Origin: Streptomyces aquilus
Lineage (GTDB): Bacteria > Actinomycetota > Actinomycetes > Streptomycetales > Streptomycetaceae
Assembly (NCBI RefSeq): GCF_003955715.1
Contig: NZ_CP034463.1
Coordinates: 8,370,001 to 8,434,000 of the forward strand
Reading direction: 5' to 3'
DNA length: 64,000 nt
The notes below the pieces were generated by a model. The model was not told where the DNA came from. It made no database searches and worked only from the letters and a program-made list of their open reading frames with translations. The translations under genes and the position numbers were made by a program. Below are positions 4,296 to 49,963 of this stretch, one piece after another (positions within the stretch are counted from its first letter, which is position 1; each line of letters opens with the position of its first letter).

Positions 4296-4312
4296 GGAAA
4301 GGGTTCACCGCC

Positions 4313-5350: not shown

Positions 5351-5355
5351 GCCGC

Positions 5356-5462
5356 TCCGCCCGGCGGACCGGGGCCTGTCCGGCGGATCGGCGTGCCGAA
5401 CCCCGCGTCCGCGGCCACGGCATGATCCGCCGGACCGGCCCCAGACGACTCCGCCGGGCGGA
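5356..5462. other. long intercistronic hairpin
   Basis: Three nested perfect stems can form: 5356-5368 with 5450-5462 (13 bp), 5371-5376 with 5437-5442 (6 bp) and 5378-5389 with 5424-5435 (12 bp), around a 34-base loop. There is no T-run. It sits between the binding-protein stop and the dehydrogenase ribosome-binding site. It may stabilise the transporter mRNA or attenuate the downstream genes. Confidence 0.75.
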
Positions 5463-5505
5463 CCGCACCCCCCACCGCGCCACGACGACGAGGAGGACAT
5501 TGCGC

Positions 5506-6714
5506 ATGGCACAGCCGCAGCAGTCAGAAGGAGAAGGCGCCGACAAGCCGCCGCTCCGCGTGGGCATGGTCGGCTACGCCTTCATGGGCGCCGCCCACTC
5601 CCAGGGCTGGCGCACCGCGGGTCGCGTCTTCGACCTGCCCCGGCAGCCGGTCCTGTCCGCGATCTGCGGGCGCGACCCGGACGCCGTGCGGGCGGCGGCC
5701 GACAAACACGGCTGGGCGGCGGCCGAGACCGACTGGCGTGCGCTGATCGCCCGCGACGACGTCGACCTCGTCGACATCTGCACCCCCGGCGACAGCCACG
5801 CCGACATCGCTGTCGCCGCCCTCGCCGCGGGCAAGCACGTGCTGTGCGAGAAGCCCCTGGCGAACTCCGTCGAGGAGGCCGAGAAGATGACGCGGGCGGC
5901 CGAAGAGGCCTTCGCACGCGGTCAGTTGGCGATGGTCGGCTTCAACTACCGCCGGGTGCCCGCCACCGCGCTCGCCCGGAACATGATCGCCGAGGGCCGT
6001 GTCGGAAAGCTGCGGCACGTGCGGGTGGCGTACCTCCAGGACTGGCTCGTGGACCCGGGGTTCCCGCTCACCTGGCGGCTGCGCAAGGAGTACGCCGGCT
6101 CCGGCGCGCTCGGCGACCTCGGCGCCCACATCATCGACCTCGCCCAGTACCTGGCGGGGGAGCGGCTGGCCGGGGTGTCCGCGATGACGGAGACCTTCGT
6201 GCACGAACGGCCCCTGCCGGCCGGCGGAGTGAAGGGCCTGTCGGCCGTGTCGGCCGGCGGAACCGCCCCGGTCACCGTCGACGACGCCGCCCTGTTCACC
6301 GCTCGCTTCGCCTCCGGTGCCCTCGCCACCTTCGAGGCCACCCGCTACGCCACCGGCCGCAAGAACGCCCTGCGCATCGAACTCAACGGTGACAAAGGCG
6401 CGTTGGCGTTCGACCTGGAACGCCTCAACGAGCTCTCGTACCACGACGGCACCGAACCCGGCACGCACGCCGGCTTCCGCCGCATCCTCGTCACCGAGCC
6501 CGACCACCCCTATCTGGAGGGCTGGTGGCCGCCGGGCCACGGCCTCGGCTACGAGCACAGCTTCGTCCATCAGGCCCGCGACCTCGTCCACGCCGTCGCC
6601 GAGGGCCGCCGCCCCGACCCGTCCTTCGCGGACGGGCTCCAGGTGCAGCGGGTGCTCGCCGCCGTGGAGGAGAGCGCGCAGAAGAACTCCGTCTACACGC
6701 CCATCGCCGTCTGA
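5506..6714 (+). CDS. Gfo/Idh/MocA family NAD(P)-dependent sugar oxidoreductase
   Basis: This 402-residue protein has an N-terminal Rossmann motif, VGMVGYAFMGAAHSQGW, and the family signature AAGKHVLCEKPLANS with its conserved EKP lysine. GDLGAHIIDLAQYL carries the conserved histidine. It should oxidise or reduce a ring hydroxyl of a sugar or inositol with NAD(P). AGGAGG lies nine bases before the ATG at 5506. It is followed after 15 bases by a sugar isomerase-like gene, a pairing seen in inositol and keto-sugar pathways. The exact substrate cannot be read from sequence. Confidence 0.92.
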   Translation: MAQPQQSEGEGADKPPLRVGMVGYAFMGAAHSQGWRTAGRVFDLPRQPVLSAICGRDPDAVRAAADKHGWAAAETDWRALIARDDVDLVDICTPGDSHADIAVAALAAGKHVLCEKPLANSVEEAEKMTRAAEEAFARGQLAMVGFNYRRVPATALARNMIAEGRVGKLRHVRVAYLQDWLVDPGFPLTWRLRKEYAGSGALGDLGAHIIDLAQYLAGERLAGVSAMTETFVHERPLPAGGVKGLSAVSAGGTAPVTVDDAALFTARFASGALATFEATRYATGRKNALRIELNGDKGALAFDLERLNELSYHDGTEPGTHAGFRRILVTEPDHPYLEGWWPPGHGLGYEHSFVHQARDLVHAVAEGRRPDPSFADGLQVQRVLAAVEESAQKNSVYTPIAV

Positions 6715-19482: not shown

Positions 19483-19689
19483 GGCCGCTCGCCCCCTCAC
19501 GCCTCGTGAGCTCAGTGTCGTCGTATGGTCAACCTTCTACAGACGGGCTACTCTCAGTTCTTCGTCATGTTTGGTGTAATTGGGATCAACTCGCCCCGTA
19601 CTCAAGGCACTTGAGTGGTGGGCCGGATGGTCGGTGCGGGAAAGGCGCCACGCGAAGGGTCACGATTCTGCCGACTGCAAGGGGTCACG

Positions 19690-20055
19690 TTGTCTGAAAT
19701 GATCTTTGGCTTCGACGGGGACGAGCAAACGGTCGCGGACAATGCGCAGAGCCTGACAGCCTGGTTCCGTGACACTGAAAACCTGGCTCGCGCGGACATC
19801 AACAGAGTCTCTCGGCCGCCCTCTGACGGGCGACAGGGCGCCGTTGACGAGGCGGTACGCGTGCTCGCCGAATCGGGGCCGGTATTGTCCGCCGCTCTGA
19901 CCGCTTACTGCAACTGGTTGCTGCAGCGGGTGAAGACACGAAACGTGGCCGTAAGGATCACATGCCCCAACGGCGTCGAGATCACCGGTACGGCTCGGTC
20001 CGAGGCGGATGTTCCGCGGGTCAAGGCGAAGATCTTGCGGGACTGCGGGGTGTGA
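19690..20055 (+). CDS. EACC1-like effector-associated constant component
   Basis: This 121-residue protein starts at TTG 19690, about six bases after AAGGGG; an internal ATG at 19699 is the alternative. The N-terminus MSEMIFGFDGDEQTV and the layout match the EACC1 family: a short beta/alpha lead, ADNAQSLTAWFRD, a hydrophobic helix LSAALTAYCNWLLQ and a final strand VAVRITCPNGVEITG. In published domain surveys this family sits beside caspase, trypsin or TIR-type effectors in predicted conflict systems. Here a caspase-like gene follows after 10 bases. Base composition is less GC-rich than in flanking genes, suggesting transfer. The assignment is by pattern and was not checked by a profile search. 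Confidence 0.7.
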   Translation: MSEMIFGFDGDEQTVADNAQSLTAWFRDTENLARADINRVSRPPSDGRQGAVDEAVRVLAESGPVLSAALTAYCNWLLQRVKTRNVAVRITCPNGVEITGTARSEADVPRVKAKILRDCGV

Positions 20056-20065
20056 GGGGAATGGG

Positions 20066-21016
20066 ATGAGCCTGTCATGGCCTACGCGTCCGATCGACCG
20101 GGAAAACTCCTGGGCGGTCCTGGTGGGCACGTCTGAGCAGGTGCACCCGAGTAACCTGCCCGCCATTCCCCAGGCAGCGTCCAGCCTCGAAGATCTCGCA
20201 CGGGCGCTGACCGGCTCCCAGGGGCTGTTCGACGAGGAACACGTCCTGCCCGTCGGCAACCCCAAGAGCACAGAGGAGGTCCTCGGCGCGCTCGACCGCA
20301 TCGCGGGTGAGAAGCCGGACGTCGTCCTCTTCTACTACGTGGGGCATGGCATGCAGGCCTCGCTCGCCGGTGACGGGAGCGGGCGTACCGAACTGTTCCT
20401 CGCTCTTGCCGGATCGATAGACGAGCGGAATGAGGCGGTCCGTACGGGGCTGCCGATCAGCTCCGTTTTCAGTCGTCTGCACTACTTGAGGGCCAAGCAG
20501 TCCGTAGCCGTGCTCGACTGCTGCTTCGCCAGTCGGGCCCTGGACGATCCGAGCGTCGGTGACGTCCATGTCCTGTGCGCGACGGGCAAGACAACTCCCG
20601 CACTTTACGAGCTGACAGACCGGCATACCGGCTTCACGGGCAGTCTCTTGCGCATCCTGGACAAGGGCATTCCGGACGGCCCGCAGTACCTGGACCTGCA
20701 GACGGTGTTCCACTATCTGTCGGTGATCCTTCCGACAACGTTCTGCGCCGCGTCCCAAGAGCCGAACGGCGGTCTTCCCCGCCCTCGGCAGCGCACCACG
20801 GATCACCGGGGCAGCCTGGCACTGGCTCGCAACGCCGCGTTCGGGACCGCCCTCACGCCGGAAGGTCTCGCCGCGCGTGCGGAGTTCGCTCGCCGGGTTG
20901 CCTCCCTCGGTAATGATCCGCTCATCGAGACAGGCGATCAGCGCATGCTGCTGGCGCACGCGGCTGATCTCTTCGAGGAGATCGCGAAGGACACGGGTGT
21001 TGTGCATACGTCCTGA
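20066..21016 (+). CDS. caspase-family protease (predicted conflict-system effector)
   Basis: This 316-residue protein starts at ATG 20066, five bases after AGGGGA. The caspase/metacaspase fold is shown by SWAVLVGTSEQ (first strand), VVLFYYVGHGMQ with catalytic His94, and SVAVLDCCFAS with catalytic Cys153. The usual SG after the cysteine pair is AS here. A helical tail of about 55 residues follows from residue 260, with no recognised effector-adaptor domain. Bacterial caspases act as suicide proteases triggered by a sensing partner. The upstream EACC1-like protein is its likely companion, co-transcribed between two terminators. Confidence 0.85.
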   Translation: MSLSWPTRPIDRENSWAVLVGTSEQVHPSNLPAIPQAASSLEDLARALTGSQGLFDEEHVLPVGNPKSTEEVLGALDRIAGEKPDVVLFYYVGHGMQASLAGDGSGRTELFLALAGSIDERNEAVRTGLPISSVFSRLHYLRAKQSVAVLDCCFASRALDDPSVGDVHVLCATGKTTPALYELTDRHTGFTGSLLRILDKGIPDGPQYLDLQTVFHYLSVILPTTFCAASQEPNGGLPRPRQRTTDHRGSLALARNAAFGTALTPEGLAARAEFARRVASLGNDPLIETGDQRMLLAHAADLFEEIAKDTGVVHTS

Positions 21017-21106: not shown

Positions 21107-22513
21107 TCAGCTCGTCGGCTGTGGCTGCGGGGGCCGGGAGACCGCTGTGCTCCGGCCCGGCTGCCGCAGCAGCAGGGCGAGCACCGCCGCCACCATGGAG
21201 ACGGCACCGGCCAGTGCGTACGCCCCGTCGTAGCCCCAGGCCGCGACGACCATGGAGCCGAGGCCGCCGCCGAACAGGCCGCTGATCAGCTTGCCGCTGT
21301 ACACCAGGCCGTAGTTGGTGGCGTTGAAGTTCTCCCCGAAGTAGTCCGGCGTCAGCGCCGCGAAGAGCGGGTAGAAGGCGCCGCCGCCGAAGCCGGAGAG
21401 GAACGCGAAGAACAGGAACAGCGACTCGCTCCTGATGTCGCCCGCCCAGATCACGCCGAACTGGGCCAGGCCCAGCACGACGATCACGAACACCAGGGCC
21501 TGCTTGCGGCCCCACTTGTCGGAAAGCCAGCCCACGACTCCGCGGCCGATACCGTTGATGACCGCCATGACACCCATCGAGGACGCCGCCACCAGCGGGC
21601 CGAAGCCCACCTCCTTCGCGTAGTCGACCTGGAAGGAGATGCCGAAGATCGACACTCCCGCGGTCATCACGATGAGGACCCACATCAGGGGGAGCATGCC
21701 GGTCCTGATGGCCTCCTTGGGCGCGTACTGCCGTGCCGCCGGAGGGTTCTTGGCGAGACTCGTCGCGTTCTTCCCGTTGCCCGCGTACGTCAACGGGTCG
21801 ATGTCCGCGGGCCACCAGTTCTTCGGCGGGTCCTTGAAGAAGAAGGCGCTTCCGAAGACCACGATCATGATGTAGCAGCCGATCAGGTCCAGGACCCGGT
21901 GGTAGTTCGCGGTGTCGAAGCCGTAGTTGAAGATGAAGATGAACGGCAGCGACCCGTACGCGAAGCCGCCGTTGACGAACCCCGTCTTCGCTCCCCGGCG
22001 TTCGGGGAACCACTTGCCGACCATGTTGATGCAGGTCGCGTAGACGAGCCCGGCGCCGATGCCCCCGACGACGCCGAAGCCCAGGATCGCCAGCCAGACG
22101 TTGCTCAGGTGCGACAGGGCGAGGAACCCGACCAGACACAGTCCTGAGCCGACGTACATGGCCTTGCGCGCCGTCAGCAGGCCCTTCTCCCGCAGCCAGC
22201 CCGCCGGGAAGGCGACGCCGGCCTGGAAGAAGATCCAGACGCTGAGGATCCAGAAGGTGTTGCTCTGCGTCCAGCCGTGGGCGTGGGACAGGGTGTCCTC
22301 CGCCGAGCCGTACGCGTACTCGAAGACACTGATGGCCATCATGGCGATCCACGGCAGATACACCATGAGCTTGCGGGAGTGACCGAGGATGTCCCGGTCG
22401 GTCTCACCGACACGGAAGACACGTCCGTGCGCGTCGGTCACTTCTCGGTAGGGACGGTGTGCGGCGTCGGGGGAGGTGGTCGAGTTGTTCGATGCGATGG
22501 GGTCCGCCGTCAT
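21107..22513 (-). CDS. OFA-family MFS transporter (oxalate/formate antiporter-like), copy 2
   Basis: This 468-residue protein has about 12 transmembrane segments and the OFA-type features ASGLV/GLVYATCINMVGKWFPERRG, KTGFVNGGFAYGS and YFGENFNATNYGLVYSGK. The N-terminal tail (PYREVTDAHGRVFRVGETD) is shared with the next transporter, so the two arose by duplication. It should exchange oxalate for formate or take up oxalate. GGAGGAA lies ten bases before the ATG. It is the last gene of a frc1-transporter-transporter unit on the minus strand and ends at the shared terminator. Confidence 0.88.
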   Translation of the reverse strand: MTADPIASNNSTTSPDAAHRPYREVTDAHGRVFRVGETDRDILGHSRKLMVYLPWIAMMAISVFEYAYGSAEDTLSHAHGWTQSNTFWILSVWIFFQAGVAFPAGWLREKGLLTARKAMYVGSGLCLVGFLALSHLSNVWLAILGFGVVGGIGAGLVYATCINMVGKWFPERRGAKTGFVNGGFAYGSLPFIFIFNYGFDTANYHRVLDLIGCYIMIVVFGSAFFFKDPPKNWWPADIDPLTYAGNGKNATSLAKNPPAARQYAPKEAIRTGMLPLMWVLIVMTAGVSIFGISFQVDYAKEVGFGPLVAASSMGVMAVINGIGRGVVGWLSDKWGRKQALVFVIVVLGLAQFGVIWAGDIRSESLFLFFAFLSGFGGGAFYPLFAALTPDYFGENFNATNYGLVYSGKLISGLFGGGLGSMVVAAWGYDGAYALAGAVSMVAAVLALLLRQPGRSTAVSRPPQPQPTS

Positions 22514-22547
22514 TGCTGGGCAATTCCTCCGTGTCAGGCCGGGGTTG

Positions 22548-23939
22548 TCAGGCCATTTCCTCGCCGAGCGGCTGGGGGTTGGGGGCGATGCCGCGGCTGG
22601 TCCTCGGTGTGCCGGGCGCCTTCAGGAACACGGCGAGCACGGCGGAGCACAGGCCGATGGAGCCGGCCAGCACGAACGCGCCCTCGTAGTCCCATGCGTC
22701 GACGACGACCGCACCCATTCCGGAGCCCACGAGACCGGAGATGAGCTTCGAGCTGTAGACCATGCCGTAGTTCGAGGCGTTGTTGTTCTCACCGAAGTAG
22801 TCCGCCGTCATGGCCGCGAACAGCGGGAAGATCGCGCCGCCGCCGAAGCCGGAGACCATGGAGCAGAACAGGAAGAACGGCATGCTGCCCATCTGGCCCG
22901 AGACCAGCACACCGAACTGGGCGGTGCCCAGCACCAGACACACGATGATCAGCGTGTTGCGGCGCCCGTAGCGGTCGGAGATCCAGCCGATGACGCCACG
23001 ACCGGTGCCGTTGACGATCGCCTTCAACGACATGGCGGTGGCCACGATCCCGCCCGCGAAGCCCATGTCCTTGCCGAACGGCACCTGGAAGGCGATACCG
23101 AAGATGTTGATGCCGGCCGTGCACAGCAGGCAGAACCACATCATCCACAGAACGGGCTGACGAGAGGCCTCCTTCGGGGTGTACTGCTTGGGGGACGGCG
23201 GGTTCTTCTCCAGCGCCCGGCGGATCTTCGGGTCGTCGGTGACCTTCAGCGGGTCGACGTGCGAGGGCCACCAGTTCTTCGGCGGGTCCTTGAAGAACCA
23301 GCCGGCCGACGCCACGACCAGGCACAGTCCGACGCCCACGCTGGCGAGCACGGTCTGGTAGTTGCTCAGGTCCATGTACGAGGTGAACAGGAACACGAAG
23401 GGCACCGAGCCGTAGGCGAAACCGCCGTTGACGAAGCCGGTCTTGCCGCCCTTGCGCTCCGGATACCACTTGCCGACCATGTTCACGCAGGTCGCGTAGA
23501 CGAGACCGGCGCCGATACCGCTGCACATGCCGAAGCCGAAGTAGGCCACGAGCACGTTCGGCGCGAAGGCCAGCGACAGATAGCCGAGCATCGTGCCGAC
23601 CGCGCCGAGCATCATCGCCGTACGGGCCGGGAGTTTGCCGCTCTCGCGCAGTTGTCCGGCGGGGAAGGCCACGGCCGCCTGGAAGAACACCCAGACGCCC
23701 ATCAGCCAGAAGATGTGCCCGCTGCTCCACAGATGAGCCTCGTGGAGGGTGTCCTCCGCCGACGTGAACGCGTACTCGGCGGAGCTGATGCCCATCATGC
23801 CCACCCACGGCAGGATGACCATCCACCTGCGCCTGCGGCCCATGATGTCCACATCGGTCTCACCGATGCGGTACACGCGGCCGTTGCGGTCCGTCACCTC
23901 CCGATACGGGACGGACGTCGAATAGTCGATGGTTGTCAT
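22548..23939 (-). CDS. OFA-family MFS transporter (oxalate/formate antiporter-like), copy 1
   Basis: This 463-residue paralogue of the neighbouring transporter has the same layout: about 12 membrane spans, GLVYATCVNMVGKWYPERKG, KTGFVNGGFAYGS and YFGENNNASNYGMVYSSK. The ATG at 23939 was chosen because it matches the paralogue's start; AAGGAG lies 13 bases upstream, a rather long spacing. It lies 35 bases before copy 2 and downstream of a formyl-CoA transferase gene. This supports oxalate or formate as substrate. Two differently tuned paralogues may handle high and low oxalate, which is inference. Confidence 0.88.
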   Translation of the reverse strand: MTTIDYSTSVPYREVTDRNGRVYRIGETDVDIMGRRRRWMVILPWVGMMGISSAEYAFTSAEDTLHEAHLWSSGHIFWLMGVWVFFQAAVAFPAGQLRESGKLPARTAMMLGAVGTMLGYLSLAFAPNVLVAYFGFGMCSGIGAGLVYATCVNMVGKWYPERKGGKTGFVNGGFAYGSVPFVFLFTSYMDLSNYQTVLASVGVGLCLVVASAGWFFKDPPKNWWPSHVDPLKVTDDPKIRRALEKNPPSPKQYTPKEASRQPVLWMMWFCLLCTAGINIFGIAFQVPFGKDMGFAGGIVATAMSLKAIVNGTGRGVIGWISDRYGRRNTLIIVCLVLGTAQFGVLVSGQMGSMPFFLFCSMVSGFGGGAIFPLFAAMTADYFGENNNASNYGMVYSSKLISGLVGSGMGAVVVDAWDYEGAFVLAGSIGLCSAVLAVFLKAPGTPRTSRGIAPNPQPLGEEMA

Positions 23940-24069
23940 CTTGGTCAAGCACTCCTTGCGTCGAAAGATCTGGCCAGCGCCCCCTGTCCAAATGCCTTTC
24001 GTGCGCACACGGATCCCGGGGCCTCGCCGACGCGCACCGTCGGTCGGCCCCTCGCTCACTCACGTCACG

Positions 24070-25302
24070 TCAGACCACCCCGCTCGTCTTCAGCAGGCGC
24101 AATTCCTCGTCACCCAGGCCGAGTTCACCGATGTAGATCTCTTCGTTGTGTTGGCCGAGGAGGGGGGAGGGGGTGATGCGGGTGGGTGAGTCGGAGAGTT
24201 TGAGGGGGTTGCCCACGGTGGTGTAGGTGCCCCGTTCGGGATGCTCGACAGTGACGATCATGTCGTTCGCGGCGAGTGAGGCGTCCTCGATGATCTCCCG
24301 GGTGGACAGGATCGGCCCGCACGGAATGTTGTGCGCGTTGAGCTCCTCCAGCACCTGCCACTTGGGCAGGGTGCTGGTCCACTCCTCGATCAGCTGGAAC
24401 ATCTTCGCCAGCTTCGGCAACCGCGCCTGCGGCGTCGCCCACTCCGGATCCTCGACCAGCTCCGGCCGCCCGATCAGCTCCGCGATCGGCCGCCAGCCCA
24501 CCGGCTGGACGATCACATACACATAGTCGTTCGGGCCGCCCGGCGCACACCGCACCGCCCACCCCGGCTGCCCACCACCGGAGGCATTGCCGGAGCGCGG
24601 CACCTCGTCACCGAAGTCGTCATTGGGGTATTCGGGCAGCGGGCCGTGCGCCAGACGCTGCTGGTCACGCAGCTTGACCCGGCACAGGTTCAGCACCGCA
24701 TGCTGCATCGCCACGTTCACCCGCTGACCCCGCCCGCTGCGCTCCCGCTGCAACAACGCCGCCAGAATCCCGGCGACCGCATGGATGCCGGTGCCGGAAT
24801 CACCGATCTGCGCACCCGTCGCCATCGGCGGACCGTCCGCATCCCCCGTGGTCGCCATCGACCCACCCATCGCCTGCGCCACCACCTCATACGCCTTGAA
24901 CCCGGTGTATGGCCCCTCCCCGAAGCCCTTGATCGACGCATACACGACCCGCGGATTGATCTCCCTGATCCGCTCCCACGTGAACCCCATCCGGTCCACC
25001 GCCCCCGGACCGAAGTTCTCCACCAGCACATCCGAACCCCGGATCAGCTCGGTCAGGATCTCCTTGCCCCGCTCGGTCTTCGTGTTCAACGTGATGCTGC
25101 GCTTGTTGCAGTTGAGCATCGTGAAATACAGCGAGTCCACATCCGGCAGATCCCGCAACTGGCCCCGGGTGACGTCCCCGCCCGGCGCCTCCACCTTCAC
25201 CACATCCGCTCCCAGCCACGCCAGCAACTGCGTCGCCGACGGACCCGACTGCACATGCGTCATGTCCAGGACACGCACACCCTCAAGAGCCATCGCTGCC
25301 AC
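24070..25302 (-). CDS. frc: formyl-CoA:oxalate CoA-transferase-like protein, copy 1 (frc1)
   Basis: This 410-residue class III CoA-transferase starts at GTG 25302, five bases after GAGG; ATG 25293 is the alternative. The family core is [20 protein letters not shown], and the catalytic aspartate lies in IGDSGTGIH. The Gly loop reads SGGGQP, where frc3 has GGGGQP. Codons from 1 to about 388 are identical at nucleotide level to the gene at 29306; only the C-terminal 20 residues differ. Codon use is less GC-rich at third positions than in neighbours. It transfers CoA to oxalate and heads the transporter operon. A GntR-type operator lies just upstream. Confidence 0.88.
24133..25295 (-). repeat. 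1,163-bp perfect inverted repeat, left copy
   Basis: This block matches 29319-30481 on the opposite strand with equal length. Translations in several frames are identical, so the nucleotides are identical as far as can be read. It starts two bases before the shared ATG of frc1 and ends at the codon for tyrosine in NEEIY. The intervening 4,023 bases (25296-29318) hold both frc promoters, sucC, sucD and an aldehyde dehydrogenase. Confidence 0.92.
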
Positions 25303-25320
25303 GGTCACCTCGCTTGGCAC

Positions 25321-25348
25321 ATTGCATACAGTCGACGAATACTGTATG
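25321..25348. promoter_or_regulatory. candidate GntR operator between frc1 and sucC
   Basis: ATTGCATACAGT (25321-25332) matches the local consensus ACTG-YATR-CAGT at 11 of 12 positions. It is followed by a mirrored ACTGTATG, forming an 8-bp dyad CATACAGT (25325-25332) and ACTGTATG (25341-25348). It lies in the divergent promoter region of frc1 and sucC. Confidence 0.6.
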
Positions 25349-25419
25349 AAGATTGTTATCCCGCATTCGATGGGTGATGTCCAGGGGGCGTGCACCACTT
25401 TTAAGACGGGAGCCGAAGC

Positions 25420-26550
25420 ATGGACCTTTACGAGCATCAGGCGCGGGGACTCTTCCAGGAGCACGGCATTCCGGTGCCGCGGGCGGAGGTCACCGACTCG
25501 CCGCAGGAGGCCCGCGAGATCGCCCGCAGGCTCGGTGGCCGCGTGGTCGTCAAGGCGCAGGTGAAGACGGGGGGCCGGGGCAAGGCGGGAGGCGTGCGGC
25601 TCGCCGCCGATCCGCCCGCGGCGGAGCTCACGGCCCGTCAGATCCTCGGCATGGACATCAAGGGACACACGGTCGGCAAGGTCATGCTGGCCCAACCCGT
25701 CGACATCGAGGCCGAGTTCTACGTCTCGTACGTCCTCGACCGCGCCGCAGGGCGATTCCTCGCCATCGCCTCCGCCGAGGGCGGCATGGACATCGAGGAG
25801 ATGGCGGCCAGCCGGCCGGAGGCGGTCGCGCGCCTCCACATCGACCCGGTCGAGGGCGTCACCTCCGCGAAGGCGGGAGAGATCGCCGACGCGGCCGGTC
25901 TGCCGGCCCAGACCGTCGACGTTCTCGTACGGCTGTGGCAGGTGCTGGTCCGCGAGGACGCCGTCCTCGTCGAGGTCAACCCCCTCGTGCGTACCCGGCA
26001 GGGGCGGATCCTCGCCCTCGACGGCAAGGTCACGCTCGACGACAACGCCCGCTTCCGTCAGGCACGTTGGGGCGACGAGAGTGTCGCGCACGACGATCCG
26101 CTGGAGGCTGCCGCCGCCGCGAAGGGCCTCAACTACGTCAAGCTGGACGGCGAGGTCGGCATCATCGGCAACGGCGCGGGCCTGGTCATGTCGACGCTCG
26201 ACGTCGTCGCCGGCTGCGGTGCCCGGCCCGCCAACTTCCTCGACATCGGAGGCGGCGCATCGGCCCGCATCATGGCCGACGGGCTGTCCGTCATCCTCTC
26301 CGACCCCGCCGTGAAGTCGGTGTTCGTCAACGTCTTCGGCGGGATCACCGCCTGCGACGCCGTCGCCGACGGCATCGTGCAGGCCCTGGACGCGGTCGAG
26401 TTGACCAAGCCGCTCGTGGTGCGCCTCGACGGCAACAACGCCGCCCGCGGCCGAGCGATCCTCGACGGCCGCGCCCACCCCCTCGTCCAGCAGGCCACCA
26501 CCATGGACGGTGCCGCCCGCCGCGCCGCCCAACTCGCCAACACCAGTTGA
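25420..26550 (+). CDS. sucC: succinate-CoA ligase beta subunit-like (ATP-grasp)
   Basis: This 376-residue protein starts [20 protein letters not shown], the classic SucC N-terminus. The ATP-grasp domain has [20 protein letters not shown] and VLVEVNPLV. The C-terminal CoA-ligase flavodoxin-like part has [18 protein letters not shown] and [23 protein letters not shown] lies about seven bases before the ATG. Its place between two frc genes suggests a dedicated paralogue of the citric-acid-cycle enzyme. It might link succinyl-CoA, or another acyl-CoA, to oxalate activation. It overlaps no neighbour and precedes the alpha subunit by 11 bases. Confidence 0.9.
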
Positions 26551-26561
26551 AGGAGCGGGAC

Positions 26562-27446
26562 ATGGCCGTCTTTCTCACCAAGGAGTCCAAGGTCCTCGTC
26601 CAGGGCATGACGGGCGGCGAGGGCATGAAACACACCCGGCGCATGCTCGCCGCCGGCACGAACATCGTCGGCGGCGTCAACCCGCGCAAGGCCGGGCAGA
26701 GCGTCGACTTCGACGAGCGGGCCGTCCCGGTCTTCGGGTCGGTCGCCGAGGGCATGCGGGCGACCGGGGCCGACGTCACCGTCGTCTTCGTGCCGCCCGC
26801 CTTCGCCAAGTCGGCCGTCGTCGAGGCCGCCGACGCCGGCATCGGGCTGGCCGTCGTCATCACCGAGGGCATCCCCGTCCACGACTCCGTCGCCTTCACC
26901 TCGTACGCGAAGGAGAAGGGCACCCGGATCATCGGTCCCAACTGTCCTGGCCTGATCACTCCGGGCCAGTCCAACGCGGGCATCATCCCCGCGGACATCA
27001 CCAGGTCCGGCCGTGTCGGCCTGGTGTCCAAGTCGGGCACGCTCACCTACCAACTCATGTACGAGCTGCGCGACATCGGCTTCTCGACCTGTGTCGGCAT
27101 CGGCGGCGACCCCGTCGTCGGCACCACCCACATCGACTGCCTGGCCGCCTTCCAGGACGACCCCGACACCGAACTCGTCGTTCTCATCGGGGAGATCGGC
27201 GGAGACGCCGAGGAACGGGCCGCCGCCTACATCCGCGACCACGTCACCAAGCCGGTCGTCGGCTACATCGCCGGCTTCACCGCGCCCGAAGGCAAGACCA
27301 TGGGCCACGCGGGCGCCATCGTGTCCGGGTCCTCCGGCACCGCGCAGGCGAAGAAGGAGGCCCTGGAGGCGGTCGGTGTCAAGGTCGGAAACACCCCGAC
27401 CGAGACGGCCCGCCTTGTGCTCGCCCGGCTGGAAACGGGCGCCTGA
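26562..27446 (+). CDS. sucD: succinate-CoA ligase alpha subunit-like
   Basis: This 294-residue protein has the CoA-binding Rossmann part ([26 protein letters not shown]) and the ligase part. The phosphohistidine motif [12 protein letters not shown] carries the catalytic histidine, and [13 protein letters not shown] is conserved. AAGGAG overlaps the sucC stop region, so the two subunits are coupled. With sucC it should form an alpha-beta acyl-CoA synthetase making or using succinyl-CoA. A 204-base gap containing a consensus TTGACA hexamer (27482-27487) precedes the next gene. Confidence 0.9.
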
Positions 27447-27650
27447 CACCACCCACGCTGGAACCTGGCACCACTCGGTGGTTGACACGGAGACCCTGCC
27501 GGGAACAACGGAGTAACCGCGGGGCGCACATCCGGCGCCACCGCATTCTCCCCGCATGAGCGGCTGTCGGCCGCGTGGACATGTGTTCCCACGCGATCCG
27601 GCAGACATCACCCCCCGCCCCCGACTGTGCACCGAGAGCGGAGACACCGC

Positions 27651-29207
27651 ATGACATCCACCCTCAACGCCACACCCCTCGTGGTGAAGTCCGGCACGAA
27701 CTGGGCCGACGCCTGGCAGCGCTGCCTCGCCGTCGCCCCCGAGGCGTTCCGCGACGACCGCGTCCTCAACCTCTGGAACGCCGCCTGGCAGGCGGACGGC
27801 CGGGCCCTGCCCGCCACCAGCCCCGTCGACGGCAGCCCCATCGCCGGCCCGCCCCGCCTCGACCGTGACGCCGCCCACCGGGCCGTCCGCGCCTCCCTCG
27901 ACCAGCACCGCGCCTGGCGGCACGTCTCGCTCGCCGAGCGCCGCGCCCGTGTCGCGGCCACCCTCGACGCCCTCACCCAGCACCGCGAGCTGCTCGCGCT
28001 CCTCCTCGTCTGGGAGATCGGCAAGCCGTGGCGGCTCGCCCAGGCCGACGTCGACCGGGCCATCGACGGAGTGCGCTGGTACGTCGACGGCATCGAACCG
28101 ATGGTCGCGGGCCGCGCACCCCTCGACGGCCCGGTGTCCAACATCGCGAGCTGGAACTACCCGATGAGCGTGCTCGTTCACGCATTGCTGGTCCAAGCAC
28201 TGGCGGGCAACGCGGTCATCGCCAAGACCCCGACCGACGGCGGCGTCGCCTGTCTCACCCTGGCCTGCGCCCTCGCCGCCCGTGAGGGCATCCCCGTGAC
28301 CCTCGTCAGCGGCAGCGGCGGCGAGCTGTCGGAGGCACTGGTCAAGGCGCCCGAGATCGGCTGCGTCTCCTTCGTCGGCGGCCGGGACACCGGCGCCGCC
28401 GTCGCCACGGCCGTCGCCGACCTCGGCAAGCGGCACATCCTCGAACAGGAAGGACTCAACACCTGGGGCATCTGGAACTACTCGGACTGGGACACGCTGA
28501 CAGCCGTCATCCCCAAGCTCTTCGACTACGGCAAGCAGCGCTGCACGGCGTACCCACGCTTCGTCGTCCAGCGCGAGCTGTTCGACGCGTTCCTCGCGGC
28601 GTACCTCCCGGCCGTGCGCTCGCTCAGCGTCGGGCACCCGCTGGCGGTCACCCACGCCGACGACCCCTACCCGGCCCTGGACTTCGGCCCGGTCATCAAC
28701 GCGGCCAAGGCCAAGGAGCTGCACGACCAGATCGCCGAGGCCATCAGCCGCGGCGCCGTCCCGCTGCACCGCGGCTCGCCTGCCGACGCCCGCTTCCTGC
28801 CCGGCCAGGACACCTCGGCGTACGTCCAGCCCGTCACCCTCCTCAACCCGCCCCCGTCCTCCCCGCTGCACCACGCGGAACCCTTCGGCCCGGTCGACAC
28901 CATCGTCCTGGTCGACACGGAGGCCGAGCTGCTGGCCGCCATGAACGCCTCCAACGGCGCCCTGGTCGCCACCCTGTCCACGGACGACCAGTCGACCTTC
29001 GACCGGCTCGCACCCCAGATCCGCGCCTTCAAGATCGGGCACGGCAAGCCGCGCTCCCGCGGTGACCGCGACGAGCTGTTCGGCGGCTTCGGCGCGTCCT
29101 GGCGCGGCGCGTTCGTCGGCGGTGAGCTGCTGGTGCGCGCGGTGACCCAGGGCCCGGCGGACGAGCGCCTGCCCGGCAACTTCCCGGAGTACCAGCTGAT
29201 GCCGTAA
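27651..29207 (+). CDS. aldehyde dehydrogenase-family protein
   Basis: This 518-residue protein starts at ATG 27651, seven bases after GGAG. The ALDH fold is shown by PVSNIASWNYPMSVLVHALL, GNAVIAKTPTDGG and FVGGRDTGAAVATAVADLG. A probable catalytic cysteine lies in YGKQRCTAYPRF, and a glutamate lies in ILEQEGLNTWG in place of the usual ELGGKN. These departures point to a specialised subfamily. Because it sits in an oxalate island beside CoA genes, an acylating reaction such as oxalyl-CoA/glyoxylate interconversion is possible but unproven. A terminator follows. Confidence 0.8.
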   Translation: MTSTLNATPLVVKSGTNWADAWQRCLAVAPEAFRDDRVLNLWNAAWQADGRALPATSPVDGSPIAGPPRLDRDAAHRAVRASLDQHRAWRHVSLAERRARVAATLDALTQHRELLALLLVWEIGKPWRLAQADVDRAIDGVRWYVDGIEPMVAGRAPLDGPVSNIASWNYPMSVLVHALLVQALAGNAVIAKTPTDGGVACLTLACALAAREGIPVTLVSGSGGELSEALVKAPEIGCVSFVGGRDTGAAVATAVADLGKRHILEQEGLNTWGIWNYSDWDTLTAVIPKLFDYGKQRCTAYPRFVVQRELFDAFLAAYLPAVRSLSVGHPLAVTHADDPYPALDFGPVINAAKAKELHDQIAEAISRGAVPLHRGSPADARFLPGQDTSAYVQPVTLLNPPPSSPLHHAEPFGPVDTIVLVDTEAELLAAMNASNGALVATLSTDDQSTFDRLAPQIRAFKIGHGKPRSRGDRDELFGGFGASWRGAFVGGELLVRAVTQGPADERLPGNFPEYQLMP

Positions 29208-29216
29208 GGCCGACGC

Positions 29217-29250
29217 GGCGGGCGGCGCCCTGACACGGGCGCCGCCCGCC
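29217..29250. terminator. strong hairpin terminator
   Basis: A perfect 14-bp GC stem (29217-29230 with 29237-29250) with a 6-base loop follows the aldehyde dehydrogenase stop. It isolates sucCD-ALDH from frc2. Confidence 0.85.
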
Positions 29251-29274
29251 AACGGCGAACACAACACTCTGCCG

Positions 29275-29292
29275 GTATGCACTATGCAAAAC
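29275..29292. promoter_or_regulatory. weak operator-like motif before frc2
   Basis: GTATGCACTATGCA contains TATGCA twice and a TGCA-N3-TGCA dyad. It resembles the GCATAC half-site of the other island operators but does not fit the 12-bp consensus. It lies about 15 bases before the frc2 start. Confidence 0.3.
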
Positions 29293-29305
29293 GAAGAGGG
29301 ATGGG

Positions 29306-30544
29306 GTGGCGAGCATGACGATGGCTCTTGAGGGTGTGCGTGTCCTGGACATGACGCATGTGCAGTCGGGTCCGTCGGCGACGCAGTTGCTGGCGTGGCT
29401 GGGAGCGGATGTGGTGAAGGTGGAGGCGCCGGGCGGGGACGTCACCCGGGGCCAGTTGCGGGATCTGCCGGATGTGGACTCGCTGTATTTCACGATGCTC
29501 AACTGCAACAAGCGCAGCATCACGTTGAACACGAAGACCGAGCGGGGCAAGGAGATCCTGACCGAGCTGATCCGGGGTTCGGATGTGCTGGTGGAGAACT
29601 TCGGTCCGGGGGCGGTGGACCGGATGGGGTTCACGTGGGAGCGGATCAGGGAGATCAATCCGCGGGTCGTGTATGCGTCGATCAAGGGCTTCGGGGAGGG
29701 GCCATACACCGGGTTCAAGGCGTATGAGGTGGTGGCGCAGGCGATGGGTGGGTCGATGGCGACCACGGGGGATGCGGACGGTCCGCCGATGGCGACGGGT
29801 GCGCAGATCGGTGATTCCGGCACCGGCATCCATGCGGTCGCCGGGATTCTGGCGGCGTTGTTGCAGCGGGAGCGCAGCGGGCGGGGTCAGCGGGTGAACG
29901 TGGCGATGCAGCATGCGGTGCTGAACCTGTGCCGGGTCAAGCTGCGTGACCAGCAGCGTCTGGCGCACGGCCCGCTGCCCGAATACCCCAATGACGACTT
30001 CGGTGACGAGGTGCCGCGCTCCGGCAATGCCTCCGGTGGTGGGCAGCCGGGGTGGGCGGTGCGGTGTGCGCCGGGCGGCCCGAACGACTATGTGTATGTG
30101 ATCGTCCAGCCGGTGGGCTGGCGGCCGATCGCGGAGCTGATCGGGCGGCCGGAGCTGGTCGAGGATCCGGAGTGGGCGACGCCGCAGGCGCGGTTGCCGA
30201 AGCTGGCGAAGATGTTCCAGCTGATCGAGGAGTGGACCAGCACCCTGCCCAAGTGGCAGGTGCTGGAGGAGCTCAACGCGCACAACATTCCGTGCGGGCC
30301 GATCCTGTCCACCCGGGAGATCATCGAGGACGCCTCACTCGCCGCGAACGACATGATCGTCACTGTCGAGCATCCCGAACGGGGCACCTACACCACCGTG
30401 GGCAACCCCCTCAAACTCTCCGACTCACCCACCCGCATCACCCCCTCCCCCCTCCTCGGCCAACACAACGAAGAGATCTACGTCCGTGAACTCGGGCTGA
30501 CCCTGGACGAGTTGCCGCTGCTCAAGTCGCAGGGAGTGATCTGA
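29306..30544 (+). CDS. frc: formyl-CoA:oxalate CoA-transferase-like protein, copy 2 (frc2)
   Basis: This 412-residue class III CoA-transferase begins at GTG 29306 (ATG 29315 and 29321 are alternatives) after AGAGGG. Catalytic Asp170 lies in IGDSGTGIH, and the SGGGQP loop is as in copy 1. From ATG 29321 to the codon for NEEIY it is identical to copy 1 at DNA level. The C-terminus then diverges ([20 protein letters not shown]). Identity despite different tails points to recent duplication or ongoing gene conversion. It is coupled to the carbonic anhydrase gene by a one-base overlap (TGATG). Confidence 0.88.
29319..30481 (+). repeat. 1,163-bp perfect inverted repeat, right copy
   Basis: This is the partner of 24133-25295. 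The boundaries fall at the start codon region and at the tyrosine codon of NEEIY in both copies. Flanking bases differ immediately outside. No transposase, terminal repeat or target duplication is visible at the edges. Confidence 0.92.
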
Positions 30545-31032
30545 TGTCGGTCACCGACCAGCTCGTGAAGTCGAACAAGGACTACGCCGCCGCGTTCACC
30601 GACCCCGGCATGGACGCCCGCCCTGTTCTGCACGTCGCCATCGTGGCCTGCATGGACGCCCGCCTCGACCTGCACGCGGCGCTCGGCCTGGAGCTCGGCG
30701 ACTGTCACACCATCCGCAACGCGGGCGGCGTGGTCACCGACGACGTGATCCGGTCCCTGACCATCAGCCAGCACAAGCTGGGCACCCGCAGCATCGTGCT
30801 GATCCACCACACCGGCTGCGGTCTGGAGGCGATCACCGAGGACTTCCGCACCGAGCTGGAGATGGCGGTCGGCCAGCGCCCGGCCTGGGCCGTGGAGGCC
30901 TTCCGGGACGTCGACCAGGACGTGCGCCAGTCCATGCAGCGGGTGCGCACCAACCCGTTCCTGCTGCACACCGACGACGTGCGCGGCTTCGTCTTCGACG
31001 TGAAGACCGGCCTGGTACGGGAGATCCGCTGA
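30544..31032 (+). CDS. beta-class carbonic anhydrase
   Basis: This 162-residue protein has the zinc ligands of beta-carbonic anhydrases: Cys36 in ACMDARLD (with the Asp/Arg dyad) and His89/Cys92 in HHTGCG. The core IRNAGGVVTDDVIRSL is also conserved. It interconverts CO2 and bicarbonate. Coupled to frc2, it would trap or hydrate CO2 released by oxalyl-CoA decarboxylase and formate dehydrogenase, and may help balance the alkalinity of oxalate use. The length is normal for the short actinobacterial type. Confidence 0.92.
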   Translation: MSVTDQLVKSNKDYAAAFTDPGMDARPVLHVAIVACMDARLDLHAALGLELGDCHTIRNAGGVVTDDVIRSLTISQHKLGTRSIVLIHHTGCGLEAITEDFRTELEMAVGQRPAWAVEAFRDVDQDVRQSMQRVRTNPFLLHTDDVRGFVFDVKTGLVREIR

Positions 31033-31127: not shown

Positions 31128-31148
31128 ATACAGAATACTGTATGCAGT
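31128..31148. promoter_or_regulatory. candidate GntR operator before the ACAD-like gene
   Basis: ACTGTATGCAGT at 31137-31148 is an exact match to ACTG-YATR-CAGT. It overlaps an ATACAG-AATA-CTGTAT dyad at 31128-31143. It lies 57 bases before the GTG start of the acyl-CoA dehydrogenase-like gene. Confidence 0.65.
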
Positions 31149-32014: not shown

Positions 32015-32704
32015 TCAGTCCCGACCGGCCTTGGCGGCGAACTGCCTGCGGTAGAAGTCGGCCGTGCGCTCGGCGTGCCTGCGCATCACCTCGCCCGCCC
32101 GGTCCGCGTCTCCCTTGGCGACGGCCTTGATGAGCTGTGCGTGCTCGTTCCAGGCCTCCTTGCCGCGGGGCTTGGCGATGGGGGTGTAGTACCAGCGCAC
32201 CTTCTGGCCCACCTGCCCGAGCATCTCCGCCAGTACGTCGTTGGCGGCGACGGAGGTGAGGAAGGAGTGCAGGGCCGTGTTGGCGGCGACCAGCCGCTCG
32301 ACGTCACCCTCGGCGAGCGCGTCGACGCCGTCCTGGTGGAGCTCCCAGAGGCGCTCGACGTCCTCGGGCTTGGCGTTCTGCGCGGCGAGTTGCGCCGAGT
32401 AGGTCTCCAGGACCGCGCGGACACCGAGGAGTTGGGCGGCCTCCTCCTCGGTGGGGGAGTGCACGAAGGCGCCCTGGGCGGGCCGCAGGTCGACCCAGCC
32501 GGCGGTCTGGAGCCGCTGGAGGGCCTCGCGGACCGGCTGGCGGCTGACCCCGAGGTGCTCGGCGAGTTCGGCCTCGACCAGATGCTGGCCGGGCTTGAGG
32601 GAGCCGTTGACGATCAGCTCGGTCAGGGCGTCGTACACGGCCTGGCGCAGGGGGGCCGGGCGGGTGACGCGCCGGGTCGCAGCGGCTGTGAGTGCCTCGC
32701 GCAT
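32015..32704 (-). CDS. GntR-family regulator, FadR/FCD type, copy 1
   Basis: This 229-residue protein has a GntR winged helix (about residues 18-80: LRQAVYDALTELIVNGSLKP, HLGVSRQPVREALQRLQTAG) and a helical FCD ligand domain. Metal-binding positions are probably within NTALHSFL and RRHAERTADFYRR. AGGA lies five bases before the ATG at 32704. It is divergent from the formate dehydrogenase operon, with two operator-like sites between. FCD regulators bind small carboxylates or acyl-CoAs, so oxalate, formate or a CoA ester is the likely signal. Confidence 0.9.
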   Translation of the reverse strand: MREALTAAATRRVTRPAPLRQAVYDALTELIVNGSLKPGQHLVEAELAEHLGVSRQPVREALQRLQTAGWVDLRPAQGAFVHSPTEEEAAQLLGVRAVLETYSAQLAAQNAKPEDVERLWELHQDGVDALAEGDVERLVAANTALHSFLTSVAANDVLAEMLGQVGQKVRWYYTPIAKPRGKEAWNEHAQLIKAVAKGDADRAGEVMRRHAERTADFYRRQFAAKAGRD

Positions 32705-32765
32705 GGTTGTCCTGTTCTGCCGCCGAGAGGATCGGCCGCCGGGGAGGGCCGACGGTGGCCTCAGA

Positions 32766-32781
32766 ATACAGGTTTTGGTAT
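32766..32781. promoter_or_regulatory. imperfect operator at the GntR promoter
   Basis: ATACAG-GTTT-TGGTAT is a 6-4-6 dyad with one mismatched base pair. The opposite strand reads GTTGCATACC, sharing GCATAC with the site near 25321. Its place upstream of the GntR gene suggests self-regulation. Confidence 0.45.
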
Positions 32782-32860
32782 GCAACATGGCGTGACCTGT
32801 GGATGGGGGACCCGCCCGGTCTCCGAGGGGCGGTGCTCTGCCGGCTCACTGCGACTGTCG

Positions 32861-42693: not shown

Positions 42694-43950
42694 ATGAGTG
42701 AAAAGCCGCTCGCCGGAATCAAGGTGATCGACTTCACCGGGGTCCAGGCCGGTCCCGCCTGCACGCAGATGCTCGCCTGGTTCGGCGCCGACGTCCTGAA
42801 GGTGGAGCGCCCCAACGGCGGCGACGTGACGCGCCGTCAGCTCAGGGACATCGAGGACCTCGACGCGCTCTACTTCACGATGCTCAACAGCAACAAGCGC
42901 TCCCTCGCCATCAACACCAAGACCCCCGAGGGCAAGGAGGTGCTGGAGAAGCTCATCAAAGACGCCGACGTCCTGGTGGAGAACTTCGCGCCCGGCGCCC
43001 TGGACCGCATGGGCTTCACCTGGGAGCGCATCCAGGAGCTGAACCCGCGCCTCATCTTCGGCTCGGTGAAGGGCTTCAACGACCAGTCGTCCTGGAACGA
43101 CCTCAAGGTCTACGAGAACGTCGCCCAGTGCGCCGGCGGTGCCGCCTCCACCACCGGCTTCTGGGACGGCCCGCCGACCATCTCCGGCGCCGCCCTCGGC
43201 GACACCAACACCGGGATGCACCTGGCGATCGGCATCCTCACCGCGATCATCGACCGGAACAAGACCGGCAGGGGCCAGAAGGTCTCCGTCTCCATGCAGG
43301 ACGCCGTCCTCAACCTCTGCCGCGTCAAGCTGCGCGACCAGCAGCGCCTGGAGCGGGTCGGCTACCTGGAGGAGTACCCCCAGTACCCCAACGGCGAGTT
43401 CACCGACGTCGTCCCGCGCGGCGGCAACGCGGGCGGCGGCGGCCAGCCCGGCTGGGTGCTCAAGTGCAAGGGCTGGGAGACCGACCCGAACGCGTACATC
43501 TACTTCACCGTCCAGGAGCAGAACTGGAAGCGGACGGCCGAGGTGATCGGCCACCCCGAGTGGGCCGAGGACCCCGAGTACGCCACCGCGCGCGCCCGGC
43601 AGTCGCACATCTTCGAGATCTTCGCGGAGATCGAGAAGTGGCTCGCCGACAAGACCAAGTACGAGGCGGTGAACATCCTGCGCGAGTGGGAGGTGCCCTG
43701 CGCCCCCGTGATGAGCATGAAGGAGATCGCCTACGACGAGGACCTGCGCAAGAGCGGCACGGTCGTCGAGGTCGAGCAGAAGGAACGCGGCACCTATCTC
43801 ACCGTGGGCAGCCCGGTGAAGTTCTCCTCCTTCAAGCCCGACATCACCGGCGCCCCGCTGCTCGGCGAGCACAGCTCCGAGGTGCTGGTCGAACTCGGCT
43901 ACGACGAGGAGACCATCGGCCGCCTGAAGGAGACCGGCGTCATCGTGTAG
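42694..43950 (+). CDS. frc: formyl-CoA:oxalate CoA-transferase (frc3, canonical type)
   Basis: This 418-residue class III CoA-transferase has catalytic Asp170 in LGDTNTGMH and an intact glycine loop AGGGGQPGW, both as in the well-studied Oxalobacter-type enzyme. It begins [20 protein letters not shown]. It swaps CoA from formyl-CoA to oxalate, regenerating oxalyl-CoA and freeing formate. Codon use is strongly GC-biased like its neighbours, unlike the two identical copies at 24070 and 29306. A long terminator hairpin follows. Confidence 0.95.
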
Positions 43951-48217: not shown

Positions 48218-49963
48218 TCAGGGGTACGACACCACGGTGGACGGCACGGTCGACGTGCCCGACGTCGCCGCCCCCGTCTCGTTGATGACGTGCTCGTACT
48301 GGCCGTTGCCCCCGAGCGAGACGACCAGCAGGTCGTGGAAGCGCACTCCCGGCCGGTTCGGGGCGGCGAAGCCGTGGTGCTGCACGATCGTGGGGTCGAC
48401 GTTGTAGTAGCAGTAACTGCCGAGTCCCCAGCCCTCGTGCGTGGTGACGGCCTCGCCGACCCGGTAGGCCGCGTAGCCCTTGACCGCGCCGTTCTGGATC
48501 GCGGCCTGGTTCGGGGCGTCGTACGCCTTCTCGTTCTGGAAGAAGATCGTGCGGCCGCGTTCGCCGAACCACTGGACGTCGTACTTGTTGAAGTGCTCCA
48601 CGAACAGGCCGGTGGCGAGGACGTCGGAGCCGTTGACGACCACGCCGTAGTCCGCGCGGTTGGTCTCCCAGCCGACGCCCTCGCCGTGGTCGGCGCGCCA
48701 CACCCAGGTGTGGTCGACGATGGTGTGCCGGTTGTTGACGACCATGGAGGTGGTGGCCTTGCCGGGGCCCGCGCCGCCGATGCGGAGGAACACGTCCTGC
48801 ACGGTGGTGGGGTTGGCGGAGTGGTCCCGCCAGGCGCCGCTCGGGCCGACCTCCAGCAGGGACGCCGAGTTGACCGGGCCGGCGTCGACCAGGAAGCCGG
48901 CCAGCCGGACACCGTCGACGTCGGCGACCTTCAGCGCGGTGACGCCGTTGTCCGGCACGAGGGTCGCGTAACCCAGGCCCAGGACCACGGTGTTGGCGCG
49001 GTTCACCTGGATCGGCCGGTCGACGTGGTAGATCCCCGGCGTCAGCAGCAGGTGCAGCCCTTGGGTGAGGGCCTGGTTCAGCGTCGCCGCCGAGACGCCC
49101 GGCTTGGCGACGTAGAACCGCGACAGCGGCAGCGAGGTGCCCCGAGGGGTGCCGTTGCCCCAGGTCACCCCGCGTGCGTTGGTGCGCAGGGACGGCAGGA
49201 AGACCCGGTACTCGCTGCCGCTGAGGTACAGGAAGGGCTTCTCGCGGGAGACGGGTGTGGTGTCGAGAGTGGTGTACGGCGGGTTCGGGAAGCTCTGCGC
49301 GGGGGCGCCCTCGACGCCCGAGAACACCATGTTCCAGACACCGTTGAGCCAGCTGCCGATCGCGCTGTCCCTGGTGTACCACTGCTGCTGGGAGTACGGG
49401 CCGATCTGACCGTCGATGCGGCTGTCGGCGATGTAGCCGCCGCTGGCCCAACCGTAGCCGGTGGGCGAGAGGTTGAGGCCGCCGCGGACGTGCATCCGGC
49501 GGAACGGGGCGGCCTGCGCGACCGCCCAGCGGTTGGTGCCGTTCGCCGGGACCAGCGCCAGGTTCTCCGCCGAACGCCAGAAGTTCTGCGTGGCGTTGCC
49601 GCCGAACCAGCCCGCGTCGACCGTCACGTCCCCGTTGATGGTCGTGTCGTCGGGGGAGAGGCCGAGGCCCGCGATCGAGGTGTAGAAGCCGAGTTGGGCG
49701 TTGAGGCCGTGGTAGGTGCCGGGCTTGAAGAGCAGCGCGTAGCGGCCGGTGCCGAACTGGGCCGACTCCTGCTGGGCGAACACCGCGTCCAGCTTCGCCT
49801 GGATGTCAGGGGTGCTCGGGTCGAAGACCAGGACGTTCGGGCCGAGGTCGCCGCCTCCGGGGAGGGCGTTCGGGCGGCCCCAGGACGGGGTCGCGGACAG
49901 GGCCAGGGCGGTGGGGACCGCGGCGCCCAGGACGGTTCTCCGGCTGAGCGGGGACGGACTCAT
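48218..49963 (-). CDS. secreted right-handed beta-helix (pectate-lyase/GH55-like) protein
   Basis: This 581-residue protein has a twin-arginine-type signal (SRRTVLGAAVPTALALSA). The mature part has two pectin-lyase-like repeats: ALLFKPGTYHGLNAQLGFYT and LLLTPGIYHVDRPIQVNRAN, with PTTVQDVFLRIGGAG in the second. This resembles a streptomycete family often labelled adenylyl cyclase by mistake. It is more likely a polysaccharide-active or binding protein, perhaps on beta-1,3-glucan. It is divergent from a sugar ABC importer and shares a LacI-type operator with it. Confidence 0.8.
   Translation of the reverse strand: MSPSPLSRRTVLGAAVPTALALSATPSWGRPNALPGGGDLGPNVLVFDPSTPDIQAKLDAVFAQQESAQFGTGRYALLFKPGTYHGLNAQLGFYTSIAGLGLSPDDTTINGDVTVDAGWFGGNATQNFWRSAENLALVPANGTNRWAVAQAAPFRRMHVRGGLNLSPTGYGWASGGYIADSRIDGQIGPYSQQQWYTRDSAIGSWLNGVWNMVFSGVEGAPAQSFPNPPYTTLDTTPVSREKPFLYLSGSEYRVFLPSLRTNARGVTWGNGTPRGTSLPLSRFYVAKPGVSAATLNQALTQGLHLLLTPGIYHVDRPIQVNRANTVVLGLGYATLVPDNGVTALKVADVDGVRLAGFLVDAGPVNSASLLEVGPSGAWRDHSANPTTVQDVFLRIGGAGPGKATTSMVVNNRHTIVDHTWVWRADHGEGVGWETNRADYGVVVNGSDVLATGLFVEHFNKYDVQWFGERGRTIFFQNEKAYDAPNQAAIQNGAVKGYAAYRVGEAVTTHEGWGLGSYCYYNVDPTIVQHHGFAAPNRPGVRFHDLLVVSLGGNGQYEHVINETGAATSGTSTVPSTVVSYP

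Follow-up and report, generated by a model that had tools for sequence, protein, structure and literature searches.

The window analysed here, a stretch of 64,000 nucleotides of Streptomyces aquilus (contig NZ_CP034463.1, positions 8,370,001 to 8,434,000), carries two formyl-CoA transferase family genes, frc1 and frc2, which face outward from a loop of other genes and share a perfect inverted repeat of 1,163 bp. We are highly confident that the two arms of this repeat are an old paralogous frc pair under concerted evolution by recurrent gene conversion, and not an invertible element made by a recombinase. The parts of the pair are as follows.

24133..25295, minus strand: left arm of the perfect inverted repeat, from base-by-base comparison
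29319..30481, plus strand: right arm of the perfect inverted repeat, from base-by-base comparison
24070..25293, minus strand: frc1, formyl-CoA transferase family, transporter side; TIGR03253 with 661 bits on 24070-25281; ATG-to-stop frame
29306..30544, plus strand: frc2, formyl-CoA transferase family, carbonic anhydrase side; TIGR03253 with 663 bits
24070..24132, minus strand: unconverted 3' tail of frc1, its final 42 nt before the stop codon orthologous by position across species
30482..30544, plus strand: unconverted 3' tail of frc2, its final 42 nt before the stop codon orthologous by position across species

Both TIGR03253 scores exceed the curated cut-off of 504 bits, and formyl-CoA transferase activity is predicted for both genes.

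The arms were compared base by base in inverted orientation and show 0 mismatches over their full length, and the repeat search returned a single inverted pair (24067-25295 / 29319-30547, 98% identity across 1,229 nt, the arms being 4,023 nt apart). A total of 21 mismatches fall within 24069-24132, and beyond the arms the flanking sequence is unrelated on both sides. The initial annotation of this DNA had already described identical inverted blocks of equal length, frc genes that point outward, and identity up to the residues NEEIY followed by divergent C-terminal tails, all of which is confirmed here. The length of the repeat excludes an origin by chance. We likewise give hardly any credence to an assembly artefact in the form of a collapsed or copied repeat: drafts do break at the arms, and a 186-nt overlap in Streptomyces sp. 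LUP47B is a scaffold scar, but both arms were recovered in a whole genome of one contig (10.39 Mb), where they end in two different tails, and the frc pair recurs in independent assemblies. Assembly error is unlikely as the source of the arms because three further assemblies, made up of 3, 2 and 1 contigs, contain equivalent 100% stretches of 1,178, 1,179 and 1,186 bp, respectively, and because several drafts break at or beside the arms. Two loop contigs (L010, L012) finish at both ends in about 92 bp of frc, the contig of S. antibioticus (L006) reaches about 395 bp into each arm before it breaks off, and the loop contigs L008, L009 and L013 stop before frc. Such breaks are expected when an assembler meets near-identical arms.

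A search with the arm matched 270 of 392 genomes of the genus (E up to 1e-3), with places taken from the strongest rows. Among the matches listed, two arm-like copies lie within 7 kb in at least 8 genomes (window included), and G235 has two arm-like copies at two contig ends; G222 was added after a renewed search of the 80 genomes with two or more matches. The genomes named here are drawn from the best 80 of 573 confirmed places. Both arms are on one contig or scaffold in ten genomes: the window, L007 (Streptomyces sp. GKU 895), L011 (sp. GQFP, G079), L016 (S. turgidiscabies), L115 (G141), L116 (G140), L117 (G189), L118 (G091), L119 (G124) and L121 (sp. LUP47B, G292, also L014). The eleventh, G222 (L129), has runs of N inside both arms and was excluded from the tree, and G120 (76.8%) and G090 were kept out of it as well. 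The L121 pair was kept in the trees, the tail test and the orientation count, and excluded from the between-genome identity range.

The bodies of the two genes are homogenised within genomes, while their tails are specific to position. The within-genome identical stretch reaches 1,163 bp in the window, 1,178 in L116, 1,179 in L117 and 1,186 in L118, and the copies of the other six genomes are 94.2-98.8% alike over their best stretch. When nine of the genomes are compared with one another, identity over the first 1,150 nt is 81.8-94.8% (mean 86.0 over 72 same-position comparisons that omit L121), L115 and L116 being the closest genome pair; comparisons that involve L121 give 69.0-78.4%, with the scaffold scar present. 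In all 11 near pairs that lack an insert, paralogs are closer within than between genomes. Accordingly, near-pair bodies (G235 in, G222 out) group by genome, 11/11, in both trees: a quick tree of 109 rows with tails included has 11 pairs at support 99-100, and a careful tree of 48 rows with tails removed has seven pairs at 99-100 and four identical pairs. A constraint that joined the ten frc1 rows cost 1,380 log units (p-AU, from the approximately unbiased test, 0.0005), with three identical pairs left free. In 20 of 20 cases, the last 42 nt (14 codons) before the stop codon have their closest match in another genome, in the gene at the corresponding position, and mean tail identity is 0.62 within a genome as against 0.85 (frc1) and 0.76 (frc2) between genomes. 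Tails that follow position, together with the same neighbours, indicate a duplication older than the species splits. In the four fully identical pairs, the homogenised tracts are sharply bounded, close to the start codon on one side and to the tail on the other.

Independent recent duplications, in which each species copied frc anew into a second place, would likewise yield near-identical pairs within genomes. They would have had to arrive at the same position, orientation and neighbours across genomes, though, and the positional affinity of the tails and the presence of mosaic tracts also stand against them; we consider this origin extremely improbable. The active gene conversion suggested in the initial annotation is, by contrast, strongly supported by within-genome grouping of the bodies, position-specific tails and mosaics.

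The mosaics are most evident in L007 and L016, whose exact-match runs (336 and 360, respectively) were not attained in any of 5,000 random placements. The run of L121, whose row carries the scaffold scar, was reached by 7 of 5,000, and the test is uninformative for the window, L117 and L118 (0 mismatches) and for L116 (one). An insertion of about 186 nt shared by both LUP47B arms was considered as evidence of conversion and dropped, being an overlap repeat with N, that is, the scaffold scar; this scar, present in both frc genes, could be annotated as an insertion.

The direction of conversion can be read from L007, in which 51 of 64 differences between the copies sit at third codon positions, and in which some differences may be sequencing errors, as the contig has broken reading frames. 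At these 64 sites the window carries the frc2 base 46 times, the frc1 base 15 times and neither 3 times; in the first 300 columns of the same comparison it is frc2-type at 33 sites, frc1-type at 6 and neither at 2. Both window copies are thus mainly frc2-type in sequence. In S. antibioticus, the start of the left arm is 96.2% identical to frc1 of L007 and that of the right arm 95.9% to the window, with 89.2% between the two. From the site counts in L007 and the arm-start types in S. antibioticus we conclude that, once the window lineage had separated from Streptomyces sp. GKU 895 and S. antibioticus, its frc1 was overwritten by frc2 over at least the 5' part. In bins of 200 bp, the window and L007 are 84-96% alike in the frc bodies, mostly 96-100% (bins down to 92) in the loop and on the transporter side, and mostly 92-98% on the anhydrase side, lower where gapped.

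We propose that an inverted frc pair around a sucC-sucD-aldh operon is kept alike by recurrent gene conversion, probably through homologous recombination of the RecA type. Conversion covers the body: in the genomes with the strongest homogenisation it begins shortly before the start codon and runs to about nt 1,165-1,190, and it stops where the 3' tails differ, such that each frc keeps its own C-terminal tail. The benefit may lie in dosage, or in one enzyme being kept in two transcription units. Inversion of the loop would be no more than a side effect that fails to reach fixation.

Several observations weigh against this interpretation. The copies of L058 and L072 are about 5 kb apart, inverted and 89.7% alike, yet they group by position, and paralogs are not closer within these two genomes. 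The run test gives similar values in these position-grouping loci (35 of 5,000 in L072, 181 in L058) and is weak in L119 (154), L011 (172) and L115 (209 of 5,000). Conversely, the copies of G367 (matched to S. acidicola) are on separate contigs yet group by genome at 96%. Furthermore, polishing may have over-homogenised the arms in some assemblies. Closeness alone fails to explain the pattern because of L058, L072 and G367. Among distant pairs, the frc copies of G040 and G267 are 79 and 89 kb apart and 91.3% and 86.9% alike, and those of G212 are on two contigs, cut at the ends, and 86.2% alike. The frc2 genes of these three genomes fall into one clade (100/100) that excludes the frc1 of the same genomes and has the frc1 of G040 as its neighbour. 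Separately, G090 holds two frc loci (L138, L139) 557 kb apart in direct orientation that share at least 13.9 kb at 99.97%, which reflects either a recent large-scale duplication or a misassembly.

The arrangement of the loop and its surroundings bears on whether the arms act as a switch. The features concerned are as follows.

22548..24059, minus strand: mfs2, transporter resembling the oxalate/formate antiporter family; PF07690; TIGR00890 with 191 bits, under the cut-off of 375
25296..25419, no strand assigned: promoter region between the divergent frc1 and sucC, conservation judged by eye; contains a GntR-type operator ATACAGTCGACGAATACTGTAT at 25326
25420..26550, plus strand: sucC, succinate-CoA ligase beta; NF001913 with 491 bits
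26562..27446, plus strand: sucD, succinate-CoA ligase alpha; CoA_binding and Ligase_CoA
27627..29207, plus strand: aldh, aldehyde dehydrogenase family gene; PF00171
29217..29250, plus strand: terminator-like hairpin of 14 bp, rich in GC, in the gap between aldh and frc2; no T run by eye
30544..31032, plus strand: carbonic anhydrase family gene; PF00484
32015..32788, minus strand: GntR/FCD regulator gene; PF00392 and PF07729

The initial annotation had proposed a possible promoter-swap switch. To act as one, whether regulated or bet-hedging, the arms would have to recombine and invert the loop often enough to exchange the GntR-operator promoter between the transporter-linked and the carbonic-anhydrase-linked frc. 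The geometry fits: the genes point outward, and the operator ATACAGTCGACG(A/G)ATACTGTAT is present in the gap between frc1 and sucC in 10/10 genomes and in the gap between aldh and frc2 in 0/10, which makes the proposed promoter difference between the loop ends real as sequence. As a consequence of this layout it also holds that inversion would exchange promoters; frc1 and the transporters would lose the operator promoter, and frc2 with the anhydrase would acquire it. In Salmonella, inversion between inverted copies does occur (PMC8262849; PMC5485169). Nevertheless, all 11 readable genomes (two of which contain N within their arms) have the same orientation, with mfs2 and frc1 read to the left, (sucC sucD) and aldh to the right, and frc2 to the right followed by the anhydrase. 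These calls rest on mfs2, frc, sucC, aldh and the anhydrase, and not on sucD; L118 shows neither sucC nor sucD, and L119 has a shortened sucC with no room for sucD, such that the direction in both rests on aldh and the flanks. Seven of the assemblies in this orientation have 1-3 contigs (G000, G079, which is 78% complete, G091, G124, G140, G141 and G189), an agreement with a chance of 1/64 at 50:50 for either orientation. The comparison of relatives suggested earlier as a check for two orientations hence returned one, and a second loop orientation was found between species in 0 of 11 genomes. The variants L058 and L072 have the same order with an extra GntR gene between aldh and frc2 (no anhydrase match in L072), and the single-frc loci L042, L126 and L127 the same divergence of frc1 and sucC. 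No site-specific recombinase or transposase family (Pfam) was present among the scanned window proteins; not every open reading frame was scanned, and 48218-49963 matched nothing. With the loop orientation constant, the switch is unsupported, and we regard it as very unlikely.

Inversion of the loop is nonetheless physically plausible by analogy. PMC8262849 gives an inverted segment in 8% (5/59) of selected Salmonella clones with inverted copies and cites inversion in up to a quarter for tuf, and PMC5485169 gives almost half of events inverted at one selected Salmonella site. If one fixed conversion event per lineage is assumed, ten genomes would be alike by chance with a probability of about 0.4 at an inversion frequency of 0.08, about 0.06 at 0.25 and about 0.001 at 0.5. 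Because of these chances, the constant orientation argues against a free switch and is compatible with rare inversion. Flipping coupled to conversion, in which each conversion carries a sizeable chance of inversion, a minority of cells is inverted and selection on the promoter restores the orientation, appears rather unlikely. If true, the carbonic-anhydrase-linked frc would take over the GntR promoter and the transporter operon would lose its promoter in a minority of cells, and the same recombination that keeps the enzymes alike would keep testing the regulatory layout.

The claim that both frc promoters lie in the loop stands for the frc1/sucC promoter, but before frc2 the window shows the hairpin and no operator. 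The hairpin region (29205-29300) folds at -52.8 kcal/mol (z -5.8), and in L011 the spacing between aldh and frc2 is about 45 nt. Hairpin and short gap suggest that frc2 may be transcribed partly from the loop operon. A GntR-type operator does precede frc2 in the variants L058 and L072. Operator-like palindromes occur in 8 rows on both strands, against 0.15 expected, with one spacing. Related GntR-type palindromes are located at 31128, 32866 and 38058, and the one at 25326 has a longer spacing. The GntR/FCD protein encoded at 32015-32788 is a candidate reader of the operator and palindromes.

The wider neighbourhood, with antiporter-like transporters, carbonic anhydrase, formate dehydrogenase and oxc, is probably an oxalate-degradation region, judging from its gene content. 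A third frc (42694-43950) adjoins an oxalyl-CoA decarboxylase gene and is a diverged relative, with 65% DNA identity over the main match. The two adjoining transporter genes (21107-24059) are tandem paralogs, in which three blocks of 80-168 nt are 72-80% identical at the DNA level. In the window, mfs2 and frc1 adjoin each other; in L042 an open reading frame of 734 amino acids (4112-6316), acyl-CoA synthetase-like by eye, lies between them. The cluster carbonic anhydrase (30544-31032) has a second genomic copy at G000:C1:3052559-3053038 (protein 93% identical), and carbonic anhydrase matches are found in 377 of 392 genus genomes (E up to 1e-40). This genus-wide search was dropped as a list of frc2 loci, the strongest listed matches being mostly a second anhydrase elsewhere in the genomes. 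At 19615-21016, an EACC1 (effector-associated constant component) gene stands beside a caspase-like Peptidase_C14 gene, a pairing which we take to suggest a conflict system.

Concerted evolution by gene conversion is already known, and this frc pair is a further instance. It resembles the tuf genes of Salmonella, two near-identical inverted protein genes kept alike by gene conversion. Unlike tuf, which encodes a translation factor and has copies far apart, frc is a catabolic gene, its copies enclose a loop of 4 kb, and their 3' tails have remained distinct. As in fimS and the Hin segment, inverted repeats enclose a promoter-bearing segment. Inversion of fimS and Hin works on short sites with a dedicated recombinase, whereas the present arms are 1.16 kb of coding sequence and no inverted form was found. 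The pair is also similar to long-lasting concerted evolution in prokaryotes (26 genes), where paralogs are closer within species and gene conversion is given as the cause (PMC6053082); the main text of that paper mentions neither 'CoA transferase' nor Streptomyces. A limited search of the literature, mostly of titles and beginnings of abstracts, returned no report of frc conversion or invertible promoters in Streptomyces.

The gene frc is used as a marker for oxalate-degrading bacteria. Our results imply a warning in this respect, as frc is exchangeable between paralogs and its locus breaks short-read assemblies. At the same time, one genus offers homogenised bodies, position-specific tails, and near as well as distant pairs for comparison, which makes it possible to test in Streptomyces how gene conversion depends on distance, orientation and local divergence.

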